Source: Candidatus Raymondbacteria bacterium RIFOXYA2_FULL_49_16 (lineage in GTDB: Bacteria > Fibrobacterota > OXYB2-FULL-49-7 > XYB2-FULL-49-35). From it: 64,000 bases of DNA. The stretch is taken from assembly GCA_001789205.1 (NCBI GenBank), contig MFYT01000109.1, forward strand, positions 19,803 through 83,802, written 5' to 3'. Below, in pieces: positions 35,147-43,157 of this stretch. A program made the position numbers and the translations under genes. Numbering within the stretch: position 1 is the stretch's first letter; each line of letters begins with the position of its first letter. The notes under the pieces are model-generated. The model was given only the letters and a program-made list of their open reading frames with translations. It was not told where the DNA came from and ran no database searches.

Positions 35147-35175
35147 TTGACATTTCATTGAATTTAATATATTTT
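35147..35175 (+). promoter_or_regulatory. Promoter giving a predicted leaderless start
   Basis: Perfect TTGACA (35147-35152), 17 bp, then TATTTT (35170-35175) within an AT-rich tract. The predicted transcript start (about 7 nt after the -10) is the A of the ATG at 35182. Alternative -10 hexamers in the same tract (TATATT at 15 bp) would shift it by 2 nt. Confidence 0.6.
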
Positions 35176-35181
35176 ATATAT

Positions 35182-35592
35182 ATGCGGGGTATTAATCGCT
35201 TAAGTTGTGAAATGAGGGGTTCACTCCTTTCCGTTGCGATTACTGGAGACCTTGAAACCGGCGATCTTATCAATTTTTCCTACAAAGTCATGCGTCAACT
35301 GGATCGGATCCGCGCCCCGTTCTTTGCCTTGATCAATATTCATGAGGCAACACTTACTATTCTCGAAGGTCTTGAAGGAAAAATCAGCAAGCAGTTCAAT
35401 GATTTGGCACGTGAAAAAAAAACCATTGCCATTGCCTATGTACTTCCGCCGGAAATGTGCAAATTCTACCTAAAGAGAAAATGCCCTGAGAGCATCAGAG
35501 TATTTGAAGATTCGATCGCTGCCATGCATTGGCTCGAAAGCTTGGGCTTAACGACCGAAAAAAACGCCTCTTCCCTTGCCCAGTTTGCCTGA
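35182..35592 (+). CDS. SpoIIAA/STAS-like protein
   Basis: A 136-aa protein whose pattern of alternating strands and helices resembles the SpoIIAA-like (STAS-related) family: LLSVAITGDLETGDLINFSY, TIAIAYVLPPEM, and a C-terminal RVFEDSIAAMHWLESLG helix. The ATG at 35182 is chosen because it coincides with the predicted transcription start; no ribosome-binding site is present. An in-frame ATG at 35158 lies inside the promoter. Its target is unknown. The window also has two STAS-domain genes downstream. Confidence 0.6.
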   Translation: MRGINRLSCEMRGSLLSVAITGDLETGDLINFSYKVMRQLDRIRAPFFALINIHEATLTILEGLEGKISKQFNDLAREKKTIAIAYVLPPEMCKFYLKRKCPESIRVFEDSIAAMHWLESLGLTTEKNASSLAQFA

Positions 35593-35779: not shown

Positions 35780-36490
35780 ATGGGAGGTACACACAGTCAT
35801 GAAGTGAGTTTTTTTAAACCAACTTCAGAACACGGCAAGGCCAATAAAAAATTGATCATTGCGCTGGTGATTATCTGGATCGTCTGCGTTTTCGGATTTC
35901 AGGCCCTGCTTATTCTTTTCGCGAAACCAACACCCGAAGCAAACCTCATTTCTTTTGAAACAGCGTGGTCCGGCGCCGCCCAATCAGGAGCTACCGAAAC
36001 CGTGCAGAAAACCCTGGCGCGCACCTTTCTCGCCGTACTGGGAAAAAATATTGCTATTTCAGCGGATCACAAAAAGGTGTTGAAAGAATCACTTTCCGCA
36101 ACAGTGCTCTCCCTTGTGCCAGCGGACCAAAAAGCGCCATTTCAGGAAACCCTTGCTCAAAATCCTTCGCTTGCGGTTACAACCGCAATTCAGGTCATTG
36201 GCCTTTCGGGAACAGGATTCGATAAAATCATGGCCAACCTGCTCCCCTCTTCGCTTGTCCCGGTCGCTTCCGAGGAAATTTCAGCGGAAAACAAGACCGC
36301 GCTTCCCGCGATCATGAAGCTCTACTGCACGCACAATCAGTGCGGTCTCACCACCATGCGCTTTTTGGGTTTTCCTTTCCATTATTGGTATACTGCGCAG
36401 TTCCTTCTCATTCTCTTTGTGGGTCTCTGCTTGATATACGCGATCATGATCGGGCGGATAAACCGGAAGTTTAAATTCATCGAAGAATAA
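35780..36490 (+). CDS. Sodium:solute symporter small subunit (DUF4212-like) with large periplasmic insertion
   Basis: A 236-aa protein with two membrane helices (about residues 24-46 and 208-230). Its C-terminus, LGFPFHYWYTAQFLLILF and IGRINRKFKFIEE, matches the small-subunit family that accompanies VC_2705-type sodium symporters. Family members of about 90 aa have the two helices close together; here about 150 residues lie between them, rich in Ala, Lys and Glu (HKKVLKESLSATVLSLVPAD). This is either a lineage variant or an added sensing domain. AGGAG precedes the ATG. The symporter gene follows after 31 nt. Confidence 0.75.
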   Translation: MGGTHSHEVSFFKPTSEHGKANKKLIIALVIIWIVCVFGFQALLILFAKPTPEANLISFETAWSGAAQSGATETVQKTLARTFLAVLGKNIAISADHKKVLKESLSATVLSLVPADQKAPFQETLAQNPSLAVTTAIQVIGLSGTGFDKIMANLLPSSLVPVASEEISAENKTALPAIMKLYCTHNQCGLTTMRFLGFPFHYWYTAQFLLILFVGLCLIYAIMIGRINRKFKFIEE

Positions 36491-36521
36491 GGCGACAAAA
36501 CCACCAAATCAGGAGAAACAC

Positions 36522-38204
36522 ATGTCTCGCATTCTTAATATCTTCTGGGTATTCATTCTGGGCATCGCAGCATCAGCCGCCTTTGCCGATGCCGCGGCCA
36601 AGGCCACGCAGCTCGAAGGCGAATTCAAGCTAGGACCCGCAATCATCCTCATTATCATGCTCTGCACCTTTGTCATTGTGGGTCTGTTGAACCGGGCCAA
36701 AGACACATCGACCTACTGGGCTGCGGCGCGAAAAATATCGCCTGTTGGCGCAGGCATGGCCATTGCCTCGAACTGGATGAGCGCTGCCTCGTTTCTGGGC
36801 ATGGCGGCCATCATGTACGGCTCCGGTTACCACGGTCTCTCGTACGTAGTGGGCTGGACCGGCGGTTATGTACTGCTGCTGGTCCTCATGGCGGGCCAGA
36901 TACGGCGATATGGCAAATATACAGCCTCAGACTTCATCGGCGATCGTTATTATTCCCGGGGTCTCAGGGGCGTTGGCGCGGCTGTGGCCATTTTCATTTC
37001 GTTCAGCTATTGTGTCGGGCAATTCGCGGGTATAGGCCTCATGTTCAAATGGATCCTGGGTATAAACTATACCTGGTCCATTATCATTGGCGCCTCGGTC
37101 GTATTGTCCTATACGCTTATATCGGGCATGCTCGGTGTCACAAAAAACATGCAGATCCAATACGTGATCATCATCGTTTCGTTCATGTTACCGCTTTTTA
37201 TTCTTATGCATAAATTCGGATACTTTATTATACCGCAGCTGGGTTATGGGCATTTGGTATCGGATATCGTCGATGGCCTTGACAAAGTCAAGGGTGTCAC
37301 GGCTATGGGGCACAATTTTGCCATTCTGCCCTCTCCTGAATTTGCCATGCCCTGGGATCCCTCCACAGGCATGAGCTCCTTCCAATGGATCGCCATCTGC
37401 TTTTCACTCATGATAGGCACCGCCGGCCTTCCCCACGTCATTCAGCGCTTCTACGTTGTGCCAAACGCAAACGACGCGCGCTGGTCAGTGGTCTGGGGCC
37501 TCTTTTTCATATGCCTGCTCTACTGGAGCGCGCCCATATATTCAGCATTCGGCAAAGTTCTTTCAGCAAGTCCCGAAGTCGGCGTACTCGCCAAGGACGC
37601 GATTGTCGTCTATACGGCGCAGTTGGGTAATGTGTTTCCCCTCATTGTAGGCCTGCTTGCCGCAGGCGCGGTCTCAGCCGCCTTTTCAACAGTCGCGGGC
37701 CTGCTGGTTGCCGGCGCATCAGCCTTCTCGCACGATCTGTATTATAAAACAATCAACCCGGCCGCTTCGGAACGGACACAAATGCTCATCGCACGCGTCT
37801 GTACCATTCTCATGGCCGCTGCCGTGGCCCTTGTCGCGCTCATGAACCTGGGCCTCATTGCCCAGCTGGTTGCCGTGGCCTTTTCCCTTGCCGGTTGCAC
37901 CATTTTCCCACTGTTCCTGCTTGGTATCTGGTGGGGCGGATCGAACCGCGCGGGCGCATGGGCGGGCCTCCTTGCCGGTATCGGAGTTTCGCTGGTTGCG
38001 CTGATCTATTTCGTGGTTGGCAAATTCGGCGGTACGCTTCCGGCGCAAGCATTTGTCAATTACTATCTAAACGCGTGGTATTTCGCCTGGTTTGGGGCGC
38101 CGCTTGCCATCATCGTAAACATCGTTGTCTCAACCGCCACGGGCAAGGACACGCCGGAAAAGATTAAGGAATTCCTTTATCATACGGTGCACGGCAACGA
38201 ATAG
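36522..38204 (+). CDS. Sodium:solute symporter (ActP/VC_2705-type)
   Basis: Sodium-coupled symporter of the SSS family (560 aa) with about 13 helices, probably for acetate or another small carboxylate. The sequences YWAAARKISPVGAGMAIASN, ASDFIGDRYYSRGLRGVGAA, and GLPHVIQRFYVVPNANDARW are typical of the ActP branch. An N-terminal signal-like segment (AASAAFADAAAK) occurs as in ActP. AGGAG precedes the ATG. It is the large partner of the preceding small subunit and precedes a sensor protein, together a recurrent module in environmental bacteria. Confidence 0.88.
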   Translation: MSRILNIFWVFILGIAASAAFADAAAKATQLEGEFKLGPAIILIIMLCTFVIVGLLNRAKDTSTYWAAARKISPVGAGMAIASNWMSAASFLGMAAIMYGSGYHGLSYVVGWTGGYVLLLVLMAGQIRRYGKYTASDFIGDRYYSRGLRGVGAAVAIFISFSYCVGQFAGIGLMFKWILGINYTWSIIIGASVVLSYTLISGMLGVTKNMQIQYVIIIVSFMLPLFILMHKFGYFIIPQLGYGHLVSDIVDGLDKVKGVTAMGHNFAILPSPEFAMPWDPSTGMSSFQWIAICFSLMIGTAGLPHVIQRFYVVPNANDARWSVVWGLFFICLLYWSAPIYSAFGKVLSASPEVGVLAKDAIVVYTAQLGNVFPLIVGLLAAGAVSAAFSTVAGLLVAGASAFSHDLYYKTINPAASERTQMLIARVCTILMAAAVALVALMNLGLIAQLVAVAFSLAGCTIFPLFLLGIWWGGSNRAGAWAGLLAGIGVSLVALIYFVVGKFGGTLPAQAFVNYYLNAWYFAWFGAPLAIIVNIVVSTATGKDTPEKIKEFLYHTVHGNE

Positions 38205-38225
38205 CTGCCACGTGTTTTCTAATTA

Positions 38226-40802
38226 ATGGTGGAAAGCCCCCTGGCTGAAACGCGGGGGCCTTCTAACAAAGTCATGGTTGCGGAGAAAAAACGCATCACA
38301 CGCATATCAAACGGTTTTTTCGGCCGCATGGCCCTTCCAACGCTGCTAACTATTTGTCTTTTTGTCGTTTCCATTTTCGCGGTCATTATTCCCGCCTTCA
38401 AGGCAAACATGCTCGACCGGAAACGGGAAACCATTCGGGAGCTTACGCGATCGACAGCCAGCGTATTGAAGGAGTTGGAAGGTGAACACCGTGCGGGCAG
38501 GCTGACCCTTGAGGAAGCGCAGGGCAACGCCATCCGTTGCATAGAATCCCTCCGATACGGCGACGAAGGCAAGGACTACTTCTGGATCACGGACATGCAT
38601 CCATTTATGATCATGCATCCGTACAGAAAAGATCTGAACAACACGGACCTCACTGGTTTCACGGACCCCCATGGAAAAAAACTCTTCGTTGAATTTGTCA
38701 ACACCGTACGCAAAAGCCGCGCGGGATATGTCGAGTATATGTGGCAATGGAAAGACGACTCCGCGCGTATCGTTCCCAAACTCTCGTATGTGGAGGAATT
38801 CGCCCCATGGAAATGGATCATAGGCACCGGCATCTACATCGAGGATGTGCGCGCTGAAATCAACCGGCTTACCACATGGCTTATAAGGATTTCCGGTGTC
38901 ATTACACTGCTCATGGCAATTCTGCTGCTTATTATCATGCGTCAGGGCCTTTCCTCAGAACAGCGGCGCCGGCAAGCGGAAGAGCGGTTGCGCGAATCCA
39001 AAGAACGGTACCTGGCCCTGGTCGAAGCGAATACTGACGGTCTGATCCTGGCTATTGATGGGGTCTGTGCCTATGCAAATCGACGGGTTCTGGCCATGAC
39101 CGGCTATGGACCGGATGAAATCGTTTCCCAAAATCTGGATGCCCTGCTTTTTGCCAAGGAAAACGATACACCCTTCCCCATCAACGCCCCCTCACCTGCC
39201 GAGGCGCGTCTGAAGAAAAAAAAGGAAGGTTTTGTCGATATTGTCTGCACCGCGACCGACATCTCCTTTTCCGGAAAAAAAGGCAGGGCGCTTTTGATAC
39301 GGGACATAAGCGTCGAACAGCATGCTGTGCAACGCCGGATGATCGAGGAACGGGAACAATTCATTGCGGAACTTCAAGCAGCCCAGCTTTTCCTCAGCCA
39401 ACCGGTGAAAGATATCGCCGCTCCCGTACGCCATTGTCCCATGGCAACACCTGTGCGCGAGGCAGCGGAACTGATGTCGCAGGATCGGTCAGGCGCGGTC
39501 CTGGTCACCTCAACATCAAATGATTTTATCGGCATTGTGACTGACGCGGACCTCAGGGCCCGGTGTGTTGCCCGGAAAAAAGAGGCCACTATCCCGGTGT
39601 TTGAAATCATGAGTTCGCCCCTGGTCACTATTTCGGACAACGCGCTGGTCTACGAAGCAATGCTGCTTATGCAGCACCATGGAATAAACCATCTGGCTGT
39701 CAAAGACGCCCGTGGAAAAATCGTTCAAACCGTAAGCCACCGGGAGGTTTTACAGGTGCACCGGTATTCCTCAACCTTCCTTGTCCGGGAAATCAGCGCT
39801 GCCGAGACAGTGCAGGAGATGGCAGGCAACCGCGACCGCCTGCCCATGCTGATAAAGGCGCTTCTGGACAGCGGCGCCAATGCACGCACGCTCACACGTA
39901 TCGTCTCCCAGGTCTCTGACACGGTTGTCCATAAAGTATTGGACCTTGCCATAGAGGAATTGGGCGTTCCTCCCTGCGCCTTCGCCTTTGTGGTCCTGGG
40001 CAGCGAGGGACGTGAGGAACAGACCCTTGCCACAGACCAGGACAATGCCATAATATACGAGGAAAATGCGACTGAGACCGCCCGGAGCTATTTCCTCAAA
40101 CTCGGTGAAACAGTCTGCACCAGCCTTAACCGGGTGGGTTTCAATACATGTCCGGGAGAAATTATGGCGAGCAATCTAAAATGGTGCCAGCCCCTTTCTC
40201 AATGGAAGTCCTATTTTTCCCAATGGATCAATACGGCAAATCCGCAGGATCTCATAGATGTGAATGTTTTCTTTGATTTCAGATTTGTCTACGGCGATAT
40301 CCGCCTGCCCGCGGGTCTGCACGAGCATATCGATAGTGAATGTGGCAATAAAGCGGCCTTTTTCATGCACCTTGCGAAAAACGCCCTGGCAATTAAGCCG
40401 CCCCTGGGCATATTCGGCGCTCTCCGTCTCGACTTAAAAGGGGAACATCCTGAAACCTTTGATATAAAAAAAGCAATGATGCCCCTGGTCGATTTCGCCC
40501 GTATCCAGTCGCTCAGAAAAAAAATCTCCCAGACCAATACACCCAACAGACTTGAAGAATTCACACGGGCTGGGGGTATTGATGATTCACGGCTGAAAGA
40601 GGTCTTACAGGCATACGATTTTCTCATGCATGTACGGTTTAAACACCAGATAGCCCTTATTGAGGCCCACGAGGCCCCGGATAACAACATCAGCCCAGCG
40701 GCCCTCACTGCCATCGAATTGGCCTTGCTGAAAAAAATATTCAGCCAGTTCGAGGACCTTCAGACAAAGCTCAGTTTTGAATTTACCGGAACAGCGGGAT
40801 AA
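38226..40802 (+). CDS. Membrane sensor with sCache, PAS, CBS pair and DUF294 nucleotidyltransferase domains
   Basis: An 858-aa multi-domain signalling protein. From the N-terminus: membrane helix (about 36-58), sCache_2 sensor (about 60-215, with DYFWITDMHPFMIMHPYRKD and YVEEFAPWKWIIGTGIYIE), second helix (about 218-240), PAS (about 258-365), CBS pair (about 400-515), DUF294 nucleotidyltransferase-like domain (FVVLGSEGREEQTLATDQDN, with the GSxxR and DxD-like motifs), and DUF294_C. It probably senses a small ligand and regulates the symporter. The usual homologues have cNMP-CBS-DUF294; the Cache and PAS input is unusual. ATG 38274 is an alternative start; neither has a strong ribosome-binding site. 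Confidence 0.85.
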   Translation: MVESPLAETRGPSNKVMVAEKKRITRISNGFFGRMALPTLLTICLFVVSIFAVIIPAFKANMLDRKRETIRELTRSTASVLKELEGEHRAGRLTLEEAQGNAIRCIESLRYGDEGKDYFWITDMHPFMIMHPYRKDLNNTDLTGFTDPHGKKLFVEFVNTVRKSRAGYVEYMWQWKDDSARIVPKLSYVEEFAPWKWIIGTGIYIEDVRAEINRLTTWLIRISGVITLLMAILLLIIMRQGLSSEQRRRQAEERLRESKERYLALVEANTDGLILAIDGVCAYANRRVLAMTGYGPDEIVSQNLDALLFAKENDTPFPINAPSPAEARLKKKKEGFVDIVCTATDISFSGKKGRALLIRDISVEQHAVQRRMIEEREQFIAELQAAQLFLSQPVKDIAAPVRHCPMATPVREAAELMSQDRSGAVLVTSTSNDFIGIVTDADLRARCVARKKEATIPVFEIMSSPLVTISDNALVYEAMLLMQHHGINHLAVKDARGKIVQTVSHREVLQVHRYSSTFLVREISAAETVQEMAGNRDRLPMLIKALLDSGANARTLTRIVSQVSDTVVHKVLDLAIEELGVPPCAFAFVVLGSEGREEQTLATDQDNAIIYEENATETARSYFLKLGETVCTSLNRVGFNTCPGEIMASNLKWCQPLSQWKSYFSQWINTANPQDLIDVNVFFDFRFVYGDIRLPAGLHEHIDSECGNKAAFFMHLAKNALAIKPPLGIFGALRLDLKGEHPETFDIKKAMMPLVDFARIQSLRKKISQTNTPNRLEEFTRAGGIDDSRLKEVLQAYDFLMHVRFKHQIALIEAHEAPDNNISPAALTAIELALLKKIFSQFEDLQTKLSFEFTGTAG

Positions 40803-41034: not shown

Positions 41035-41586
41035 TTGGCAGCTCCTTACTGCATGGTCTTCTCCAACAAGCCCGATTGGTATTTAATCTTTGTCGAGCCT
41101 GAACAATTCCTCCAGCTAACCCTGTTTCTGAAAAACCATGGCTATGAACGGAAAAAAGACATAAAATATGATGGCTATTCAAAAAATTTCTACCGATTTG
41201 AAAAAAAGACCGTGCATCAAGATAAATCAATGCTCATCAGGGTAAATATTTTTTTCTCCATTCCCGAACTTCTCCGAATACAGAACAATGAAGACTATAA
41301 AAAAATCGCTGATAGCAATACATTTAAAATTGAAACCATCCCACCCAGGCAACTACAGGCCAAGTCCATACTAAAGAGGCGCATACGATATTCCCTGTTA
41401 AAACAAAGGATCGCCAAAACATTCTGGGTTCTTGGTCTTGTTGGGGTATGTGCAGTACTGGGTAAAGCTGTGTGCATGGCACTCAGCAACGATGCCCCAA
41501 TAAATGAGAACCTGATAATCATTGAAAAACTTGATCATCTGGAGAGAATGGTCAAAGACCTCTCCAAATCTGAAAATAAACCTTGA
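41035..41586 (+). CDS. Hypothetical protein with C-terminal membrane helix
   Basis: A protein of about 180 aa, not recognised. The first 120 residues look globular (NKPDWYLIFVEPEQFLQLTL), followed by a membrane helix (TFWVLGLVGVCAVLGKAVCM) and a coiled tail (IIIEKLDHLERMVKDLSK). The frame is open from 40990. No ATG is well placed: TTG 41035 and ATG 41053 are candidates, while the only ribosome-binding site (AGGGAG, 41008-41013) points at an ATC at 41020. The stop overlaps the TTG start of the next gene, so the two are probably co-translated. Confidence 0.55.
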   Translation: MAAPYCMVFSNKPDWYLIFVEPEQFLQLTLFLKNHGYERKKDIKYDGYSKNFYRFEKKTVHQDKSMLIRVNIFFSIPELLRIQNNEDYKKIADSNTFKIETIPPRQLQAKSILKRRIRYSLLKQRIAKTFWVLGLVGVCAVLGKAVCMALSNDAPINENLIIIEKLDHLERMVKDLSKSENKP

Positions 41587-43157
41587 AAACCAGAGAAAAC
41601 ACCCTCTACCTGCTGCTTACTGTTCTCTTTTTGCTTGTGGCAGTCCCAAACATATACGCTAAACTGTATATCTGGAGCGGCCACTATAGCCCTGTATGGG
41701 ACGACCCCATGAATTGGAGCACGCCCGATGACGGGACTTGTCCCAATACCATAGCTGATACTGCTGTCTTCGATTCTTTGTCCAAGGGACCCTGCGAACT
41801 CAAACGCGATATCAGCCTGCAGAACCTGGAATGCCGTCCTGGTTTCGAATATTCCCTGGATTTGTCGTTCCGTACACTGATGATCGCGGGAAACGCCGAC
41901 TTTTCCATGGGAACCCTCATTGCTGATGACGCAAATATAATCTTTGAGGGACCTGCAAAAAATGTGCAGGTTTTTAAAACCAATCCAAACGCGCGATTCA
42001 ACAGTATAACAGTTATTGGTCAAAGCACAGTGCAGATTGCTGGCGAAATGTTTGAATGCGGTGAATTGACCCTTTTCTCCGGGGCCTGGAGATGGAGCAC
42101 TGGCCAGAACATTATTTCCCGGGGCATGACGATAAGCGACAGCGCTGGAATGATCTTTGATGATAATGTGACCGTGAACATCACATCGGGCAACGCGGAT
42201 CTCAGGGGATTGAACAATCTGACGCTTGGCACAGGAGACACACTCTGTTTTTCCGCACCGGCCGACACCCAGGTGTTTATTCCAAGAACAGGCTTGCTGT
42301 TTCCCAATATAAAGAAAATGAACGCTGGCGTGGTACTGGTCTCAGGCGGCGCTTTAAAGGCCGGTGCGCTCATCCTTATTGACGGAACCTGGCAATGGGG
42401 AGAACAAGGGATCGATACGGTCCTTTTAATAAAAAAGAATGAGAAATCAACCATGATTTTTGACAGTAATACAGTGCAGTTAACCGGAGGTGAGATCGGA
42501 TTCCTGGGGTGGACGAGTGTAAACGCCCAGACCATGCCTTCGGGATTCCAGCGTACGACTCAACAAACCCAAGCCAAACGAGATGATTTGCGATATGGCA
42601 TAACAGGCCAGTCGTGGTTTACTTGGCTGCCGGATACCGTGGTCATCAGGGAAAGGAACTTGGCGTTGGAATTGGGTATAAACCTCTTTTTCCCCTCCCC
42701 TGCGTTATTCACCACTGATACTGTCGACAACCTTGGATACACCATGGGGATACTGTTTCCCATATATATTCAACATGCGCTTTGCTGGTACAGTGTCAGG
42801 GCCATTATGCATGGTTCGGCCGCTCCCTGGGAAAAAGGGAGGGTCTATCTTACCGGGATTAACGAGCTTCTCGTGGGCAAGGCGGTATATATCAAAAAAA
42901 TGCCGTTCGAACTTTCACCTTTTGCGGGTCTTGGGTTTGACAATGGGATTGTGATAAGCAACTCTTCCCAGGAGGGTTTCAAAGGCCATCAGGTGCACTA
43001 CTTTCTCTATGCCTCTCTCGGCGCTTTTATGCGGCGGAATGCCACAGTATTGAGGCGGGACCTTGTTGAGGGGCTAAAAATCAGCTTTTCCAGCGCGCTA
43101 ATACCCAATGAAGACACTAAAGTACGCCTCAGCATATCATTGGTGATCGGTTATTAA
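41583..43157 (+). CDS. Secreted beta-helix-like protein with outer-membrane barrel C-terminus
   Basis: A 524-aa protein with a signal peptide ([21 protein letters not shown]). Residues about 27-310 are short repeated beta strands as in right-handed beta-helix surface proteins ([20 protein letters not shown]). Residues about 340-524 look like an outer-membrane beta-barrel and end in aromatic SISLVIGY, as outer-membrane proteins recognised by BAM do. The TTG start at 41583 overlaps the upstream stop (TTGA). An autotransporter-like arrangement is possible. Function unknown. Confidence 0.6.

Follow-up and report, generated by a model that had tools for sequence, protein, structure and literature searches.

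A long-loop DUF4212 subunit encoded with a VC_2705-type symporter and a Cache-CBS-DUF294 sensor: a putative uptake and sensing module for short carboxylic acids

In Geobacter, acetate is taken up by the SSS proteins AplA-C (PMC7894505). In the case of Pseudomonas, the targets of CrbS/R are actP, a DUF485 accessory gene and Pflu5625, a gene for a cNMP-CBS-nucleotidyltransferase protein (PMC5715377), and in P. aeruginosa the homologues of PP_0353 and PP_0354 adjoin actP and yjcH (PMC9927547). PP_0354 of P. putida belongs to the same regulon as actP, its deletion has no consequence for growth on acetate or pyruvate (PMC9927547), and the protein has been described as functionally uncharacterised (PMC8402216). 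It has been shown that the receptor PscD binds acetate, glycolate, propionate and pyruvate through contacts with Tyr90, Trp92, His103, Phe126, Tyr143, Trp145 and Lys156, and the structure 4k08 was crystallised with acetate (PMC5062169). No mention of DUF4212 was found in the literature that we searched. To our knowledge, no role has been established for the accessory subunits of SSS symporters, and we know of neither a signal nor a target for the CBS-nucleotidyltransferase proteins that accompany acetate symporters. The clade described here provides an entry to both, since its Cache pocket predicts a signal and its folded insert gives a handle on the function of the small subunit.

The window, i.e. 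the whole stretch of 64,000 nucleotides that was analysed, contains a run of three genes with the following features:

35780-36490, + strand: DUF4212 small subunit, long-loop form, 236 aa (open reading frame; DUF4212 and TIGR03647 profiles)
35828-35920, + strand: membrane helix 1 of the subunit, residues 17-47 (AlphaFold model, pLDDT about 96)
35921-36376, + strand: inserted, predicted periplasmic all-helical domain, residues 48-199 (AlphaFold; short-form HMM; charges)
36377-36469, + strand: membrane helix 2, residues 200-230, with an invariant FPFHY at its start (alignment; AlphaFold)
36522-38204, + strand: SSS symporter of the VC_2705 (TIGR03648) subfamily, 560 aa (TIGR03648; SSF Pfam; tree)
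38226-40802, + strand: membrane-anchored sensor, sCache-PAS-CBS2-DUF294-DUF294_C, 858 aa (Pfam; AlphaFold model)
38412-38867, + strand: sCache_2 domain of the sensor, residues 63-214 (Pfam; alignment; model overlay)
39003-39305, + strand: PAS region, about residues 260-360 (PF00989 at 22.6 bits, just at the cut-off; TIGR00229 above its cut-off)
39423-39770, + strand: CBS pair, about residues 400-515 (PF00571 in two stretches; Foldseek to CBS-pair structures)
39837-40247, + strand: DUF294 nucleotidyltransferase domain, residues 538-674 (165 bits; GlnE-like in Foldseek)
39999-40046, + strand: motif GSEGREEQTLATDQDN within DUF294, residues 592-607
40356-40784, + strand: DUF294_C helical domain, residues 711-853 (131 bits)

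The three genes, all on the + strand, are separated by gaps of 31 bp (subunit to symporter) and 21 bp (symporter to sensor), and no terminator-like sites were found on that strand inside the run. Directly 5' of the small subunit lies a 144-aa open reading frame (35158-35592, + strand) that appears SpoIIAA/STAS-like by eye and has no Pfam match. A 524-aa protein encoded at 41583-43157 (+ strand) has an N terminus resembling a signal peptide and a repetitive sequence that looks beta-rich, likewise with no Pfam match.

We consider it reasonably probable that the three genes constitute an uptake and sensing module for C2/C3 monocarboxylates of the acetate type, in which the domain inserted into the small subunit serves as a cap or docking module of the symporter. 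The symporter would import the carboxylic acid together with Na+, the DUF4212 subunit would bind it via both helices and the conserved motifs close to the membrane, and the insert, on the periplasmic face, would act as an auxiliary cap or docking module. The third protein may detect acids of this class in the periplasm by its Cache domain, with PAS and CBS as further inputs, and would switch a GlnE-like nucleotidyltransferase acting on a putative cytosolic partner.

The small subunit is recognised by both DUF4212 of Pfam (57.2 bits, cut-off 30) and TIGR03647 of NCBIfam (46.9 bits, cut-off 26.05), each in two separate stretches; rather than a contiguous two-helix protein of about 90 aa, there is a split profile match with some 140-150 residues between its halves. 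In the AlphaFold model (mean pLDDT 94, built with 50 aligned sequences), 152 residues lie between the membrane helices, in agreement with the figure of about 150 given in an earlier note on this DNA, and the insert is made up of a helical domain and two short strands near the helix ends. That ordinary family members have almost no loop, as the same note held, is borne out by the contiguous DUF4212 proteins, in which the whole domain covers about 79 positions and about 10 residues separate the helices. An HMM of the short form matches residues 14-60 and 190-233 of the subunit, which places the insertion in the inter-helix loop, immediately ahead of the conserved L(N/T)...GFP motif. Judged by its sequence, the 236-aa subunit is a long-loop variant of DUF4212 and not a typical member.

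A scan of named genomes with a symporter alignment yielded 80 relatives with approximately 69-82% identity which, being picked by their similarity to the symporter of the window, represent its clade and not the family. The small subunit was located in 78 of these 80 loci, the other two having no subunit sequence beside a contig end, and all 78 subunits are long (177-286 aa), except for a 165-aa fragment cut by a contig end. By label, the clade spans at least eight phyla (Ignavibacteriota, KSB1, Bacteroidota, Planctomycetota, Verrucomicrobiota, Cloacimonadota, Delongbacteria and Riflebacteria); it should be noted that the MAGs labelled Alphaproteobacteria, Ectothiorhodospiraceae, Dependentiae and Desulfobacterales among the loci may be misbinned. 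No plasmid homologues of the small subunit were found. Among 247 evenly drawn Bacteroidota genomes, DUF4212 exceeded the cut-off in 85, three of which match by the second half only and are long-form-like; of 149 Planctomycetota genomes drawn in the same way, 28 have a DUF4212 gene, long-form-like in two. With the insert present in 78 of the 80 loci, we rejected a frame artefact or a single odd occurrence as explanations; we likewise rejected the view that every DUF4212 protein normally has it, since these proteins are contiguous in all but 3/85 of the Bacteroidota and 2/28 of the Planctomycetota. The earlier view of the insert as non-standard thus holds for the family as a whole (3/85 and 2/28), but not within this one clade, where the insert is the standard form in 78/78 loci from many phyla. 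The insert is a conserved, undescribed add-on of one branch of the transporter family, distributed across many bacterial phyla and a minority form overall.

In a tree of 53 symporters, the long-loop group falls on one side of a branch with a support of 96/97, and the haloarchaeal and the Bacteroidota short forms, each supported at 100/100, both lie apart from it. This tree, which samples few short forms and includes some long branches, would be explained by a single gain of the insert. Within the phylum of the window, the only one of 167 genomes with a DUF4212 gene is that of the window itself, and the nearest relatives belong to Ignavibacteria and KSB1. Together, these observations suggest that the operon may have been acquired horizontally, the window's genus and family having no other genome listed.

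The median net charges over 50 sequences are +2 for the N-terminal tail and -6.5 for the insert and, with positive charge before helix 1 and negative charge over the loop, the insert probably lies in the periplasm; the net charge of the C-terminal tail is 0, so that the positive-inside evidence at this end is weak and does not decide the topology. Conservation of the subunit peaks beside the membrane (PTPE at 50-53 and HN.S.LTD..FLGFPFHY at 185-202) and, within the insert, is lowest in the distal helices at 115-140, which vary in length. One locus (L038:5451-5981) carries what can be regarded as a natural deletion, a 177-aa subunit with a shortened loop from which much of the variable middle is gone, and which could help to show what part of the insert is important. 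The membrane-proximal conservation and this short loop fit a module held to the symporter better than a conserved distal binding pocket. A conserved disulfide in the insert was considered and rejected, since neither Cys183 nor Cys188 of the window sequence is conserved.

We regard it as improbable that the insert instead gates the symporter as a sensory or ligand-binding domain in the periplasm. Such a role would suit a confidently folded, conserved and extracytoplasmic domain of about 150 residues, but the distal helices are poorly conserved and length-variable, the invariant residues cluster beside the membrane, nothing convincingly similar was seen among known sensor domains, and a dedicated Cache sensor is encoded alongside. 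A Foldseek search of the insert against the PDB gave no clear match to a known fold (best E 1.3), which is no proof of a new fold, and the best result of VIA-align against the PDB (Z 5.6, rmsd 4.8 over 101 residues) is of a kind common for helical models and is no evidence either way. The extracytoplasmic sensor to which a ligand can be assigned is, by residue matching, the Cache domain of the third protein, and not the insert.

The composition proposed earlier for this third protein (sCache, PAS, CBS pair and DUF294) agrees with Pfam, with PAS only just at its 22.6-bit cut-off and DUF294_C detected as well. Among 37 aligned sensors, sCache_2, DUF294 and DUF294_C are found in all 37 and CBS in 33. 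CBS domains commonly read adenine nucleotides. In the alignment, all seven PscD contacts map onto identical residues of the window sensor (Y118, W120, H131, F154, Y171, W173 and K185), all seven are invariant in 46/46 co-located sensors, and the modelled Cache domain overlays 4k08 at 1.0 Å and 5g4y at 1.5 Å. The presence of the complete set in all 46 sensors leads to the prediction that C2/C3 carboxylates are the signal. This assignment of a likely signal from the Cache pocket is the most specific result of the present analysis.

The symporter matches TIGR03648, the VC_2705 family, with 500.4 bits (cut-off 320.75), and the SSF Pfam profile. Its haloarchaeal relatives (43-46% identity) adjoin a gene for acetate-CoA ligase (acetyl-CoA synthetase, acs), as do three Bacteroidota short-form operons, one of which also carries a cNMP-CBS-DUF294 gene. 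Its substrate is likely a short monocarboxylate, conceivably acetate itself, and the protein probably uses sodium to drive the import of small organic acids, acetate being one example. No acs gene scored over the cut-off in the window genome, which has three full-length and two partial acetate kinase homologues; the substrate could hence be another short acid, or acetate may be handled via AckA. In our estimation it is rather unlikely that the symporter carries some other solute (lactate, pyruvate or an amino acid) and that the signal of the sensor is unrelated to it: the breadth of the SSS family, the acceptance of pyruvate by similar Cache domains and the missing acs would all be compatible with this, but the Cache pocket presents the exact C2/C3 carboxylate set, and relatives of the symporter are linked to acs.

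As to the output of the sensor, the motif GSEGREEQTLATDQDN is retained, as had been stated in the earlier note, and G592, S593, D604 and D606 of the G-S ... D-x-D catalytic motif are invariant in 46/46 sensors. The DUF294 and C domains match the N- and C-terminal adenylyltransferase structures of GlnE in Foldseek. The protein has the CBS pair-DUF294-DUF294_C order of the COG2905-like CBS-DUF294 signalling proteins, with sCache and PAS in place of their N-terminal cyclic-nucleotide-binding domain; the cNMP form is present at two of the loci that we compared (L091 and L086).

In 30 of the 36 fully covered loci, meaning those in which the sequence extends for at least 5 kb to either side of the symporter, a DUF294 protein is encoded nearby (Cache plus DUF294 in 29), which substantiates the co-conservation of sensor and transporter proposed earlier. 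The window genome has a single DUF294 gene, the one beside the symporter; with one such gene per genome, a chance adjacency is very unlikely (expected well under 1% in a multi-megabase genome). The pairwise distances of subunit, symporter and sensor correlate across 43 genomes (rho 0.61-0.66; none of 500 permutations as high), a correlation that would fit inheritance as a unit and also plain shared ancestry, to which part of it is due.

The earlier note also proposed that the transporter is directly tuned by the sensor through nucleotidylation, which our results do not support: 6/36 fully covered loci have a long-loop subunit without a DUF294 gene nearby, and in eight whole genomes checked for such loci no DUF294 match was found in five, a weak absence since the genomes are MAGs. 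That the DUF294 protein nucleotidylates the symporter or the small subunit and so tunes transport seems unlikely to us, despite the tight gene run, the co-conservation, the intact nucleotidyltransferase acids and the GlnE-like fold. The nucleotidyltransferase has no known target, some long-loop subunits occur at loci or in genomes in which a DUF294 gene was not found, and in P. putida loss of the related gene PP_0354 left growth on acetate and pyruvate unaffected (PMC9927547). Moreover, acs lies between the cNMP-CBS-DUF294 gene and the transporter at the short-form locus L091, and the target may therefore equally be metabolic. The occurrence of the insert where DUF294 was not found further indicates that its role is probably independent of the sensor.

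Several other families recur beside the transporter genes. A family of predicted outer-membrane beta-barrel proteins of about 418 aa, undescribed and with no Pfam match, is encoded at 36 loci (e.g. L007:1-1200), in many of them directly 5' of the subunit. At 48 loci, mainly of Bacteroidota (e.g. L035:7639-8424), the symporter gene is directly followed by that of a TPR protein of some 257 aa that has a hydrophobic stretch near its N terminus, and a calcineurin-like metallophosphoesterase is encoded beside the sensor at 22 loci, many of them of Bacteroidota (e.g. L035:8548-9291). It is a guess that such a phosphoesterase might undo the modification made by the neighbouring nucleotidyltransferase. 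In the window, porin, TPR, metallophosphoesterase, TIM-barrel or CRP neighbours were dismissed, as tblastn gave no match to the family representatives.

The position of the outer-membrane family, often directly before the subunit, would agree with docking of the insert to other parts of the envelope, be it this beta-barrel protein or the Cache sensor. We hold this to be quite improbable, as Pfam does not recognise the outer-membrane protein and the window yielded no homologue of it, so that it is not needed at this site. Very improbable, in our view, is a single complex of insert, Cache-CBS-DUF294 protein and symporter in which the carboxylate outside sets a reversible nucleotidylation of the transporter; if true, the transporter's own periplasmic sensor would control it directly and covalently. 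We retain the insert as a putative cap or docking module of the symporter itself.

In comparison with known systems, the locus passes the same cut-offs as the VC_2705 symporters and their DUF4212 subunits (TIGR03648/TIGR03647), and here too the subunit directly precedes the symporter; it differs from them in the subunit, which is split by about 150 residues, and in the symporter, whose clade is separate from the sampled short forms (96/97). With the CrbS/R (MxtR/ErdR) acetate regulon it shares the combination of a two-part acetate symporter with a CBS/nucleotidyltransferase protein (Pflu5625/PP_0354), which are sometimes neighbours (PMC5715377, PMC9927547), whereas there the accessory subunit is DUF485 and the input domain binds cNMP, in place of the DUF4212 and Cache-PAS found here. 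The association in its general form is known from CrbS/R, and the locus departs from it in the Cache-PAS input and the long-loop subunit. The single-Cache receptors PscD, McpP and Adeh_3718 share the seven contacts, with a domain overlay of 1.0-1.5 Å on Adeh_3718 and PscD, but their output is a chemotaxis signalling domain and that of the window sensor is PAS-CBS-DUF294. Glutamine synthetase adenylyltransferase, GlnE, has in common with the sensor the fold of the nucleotidyltransferase and the following helical domain and the G-S and D-x-D motif, at an identity of only 12-14% and an overlay of only 5-6 Å. The symporter and the sensor are thus variants of known parts, and the domain on the outside is an undescribed add-on.
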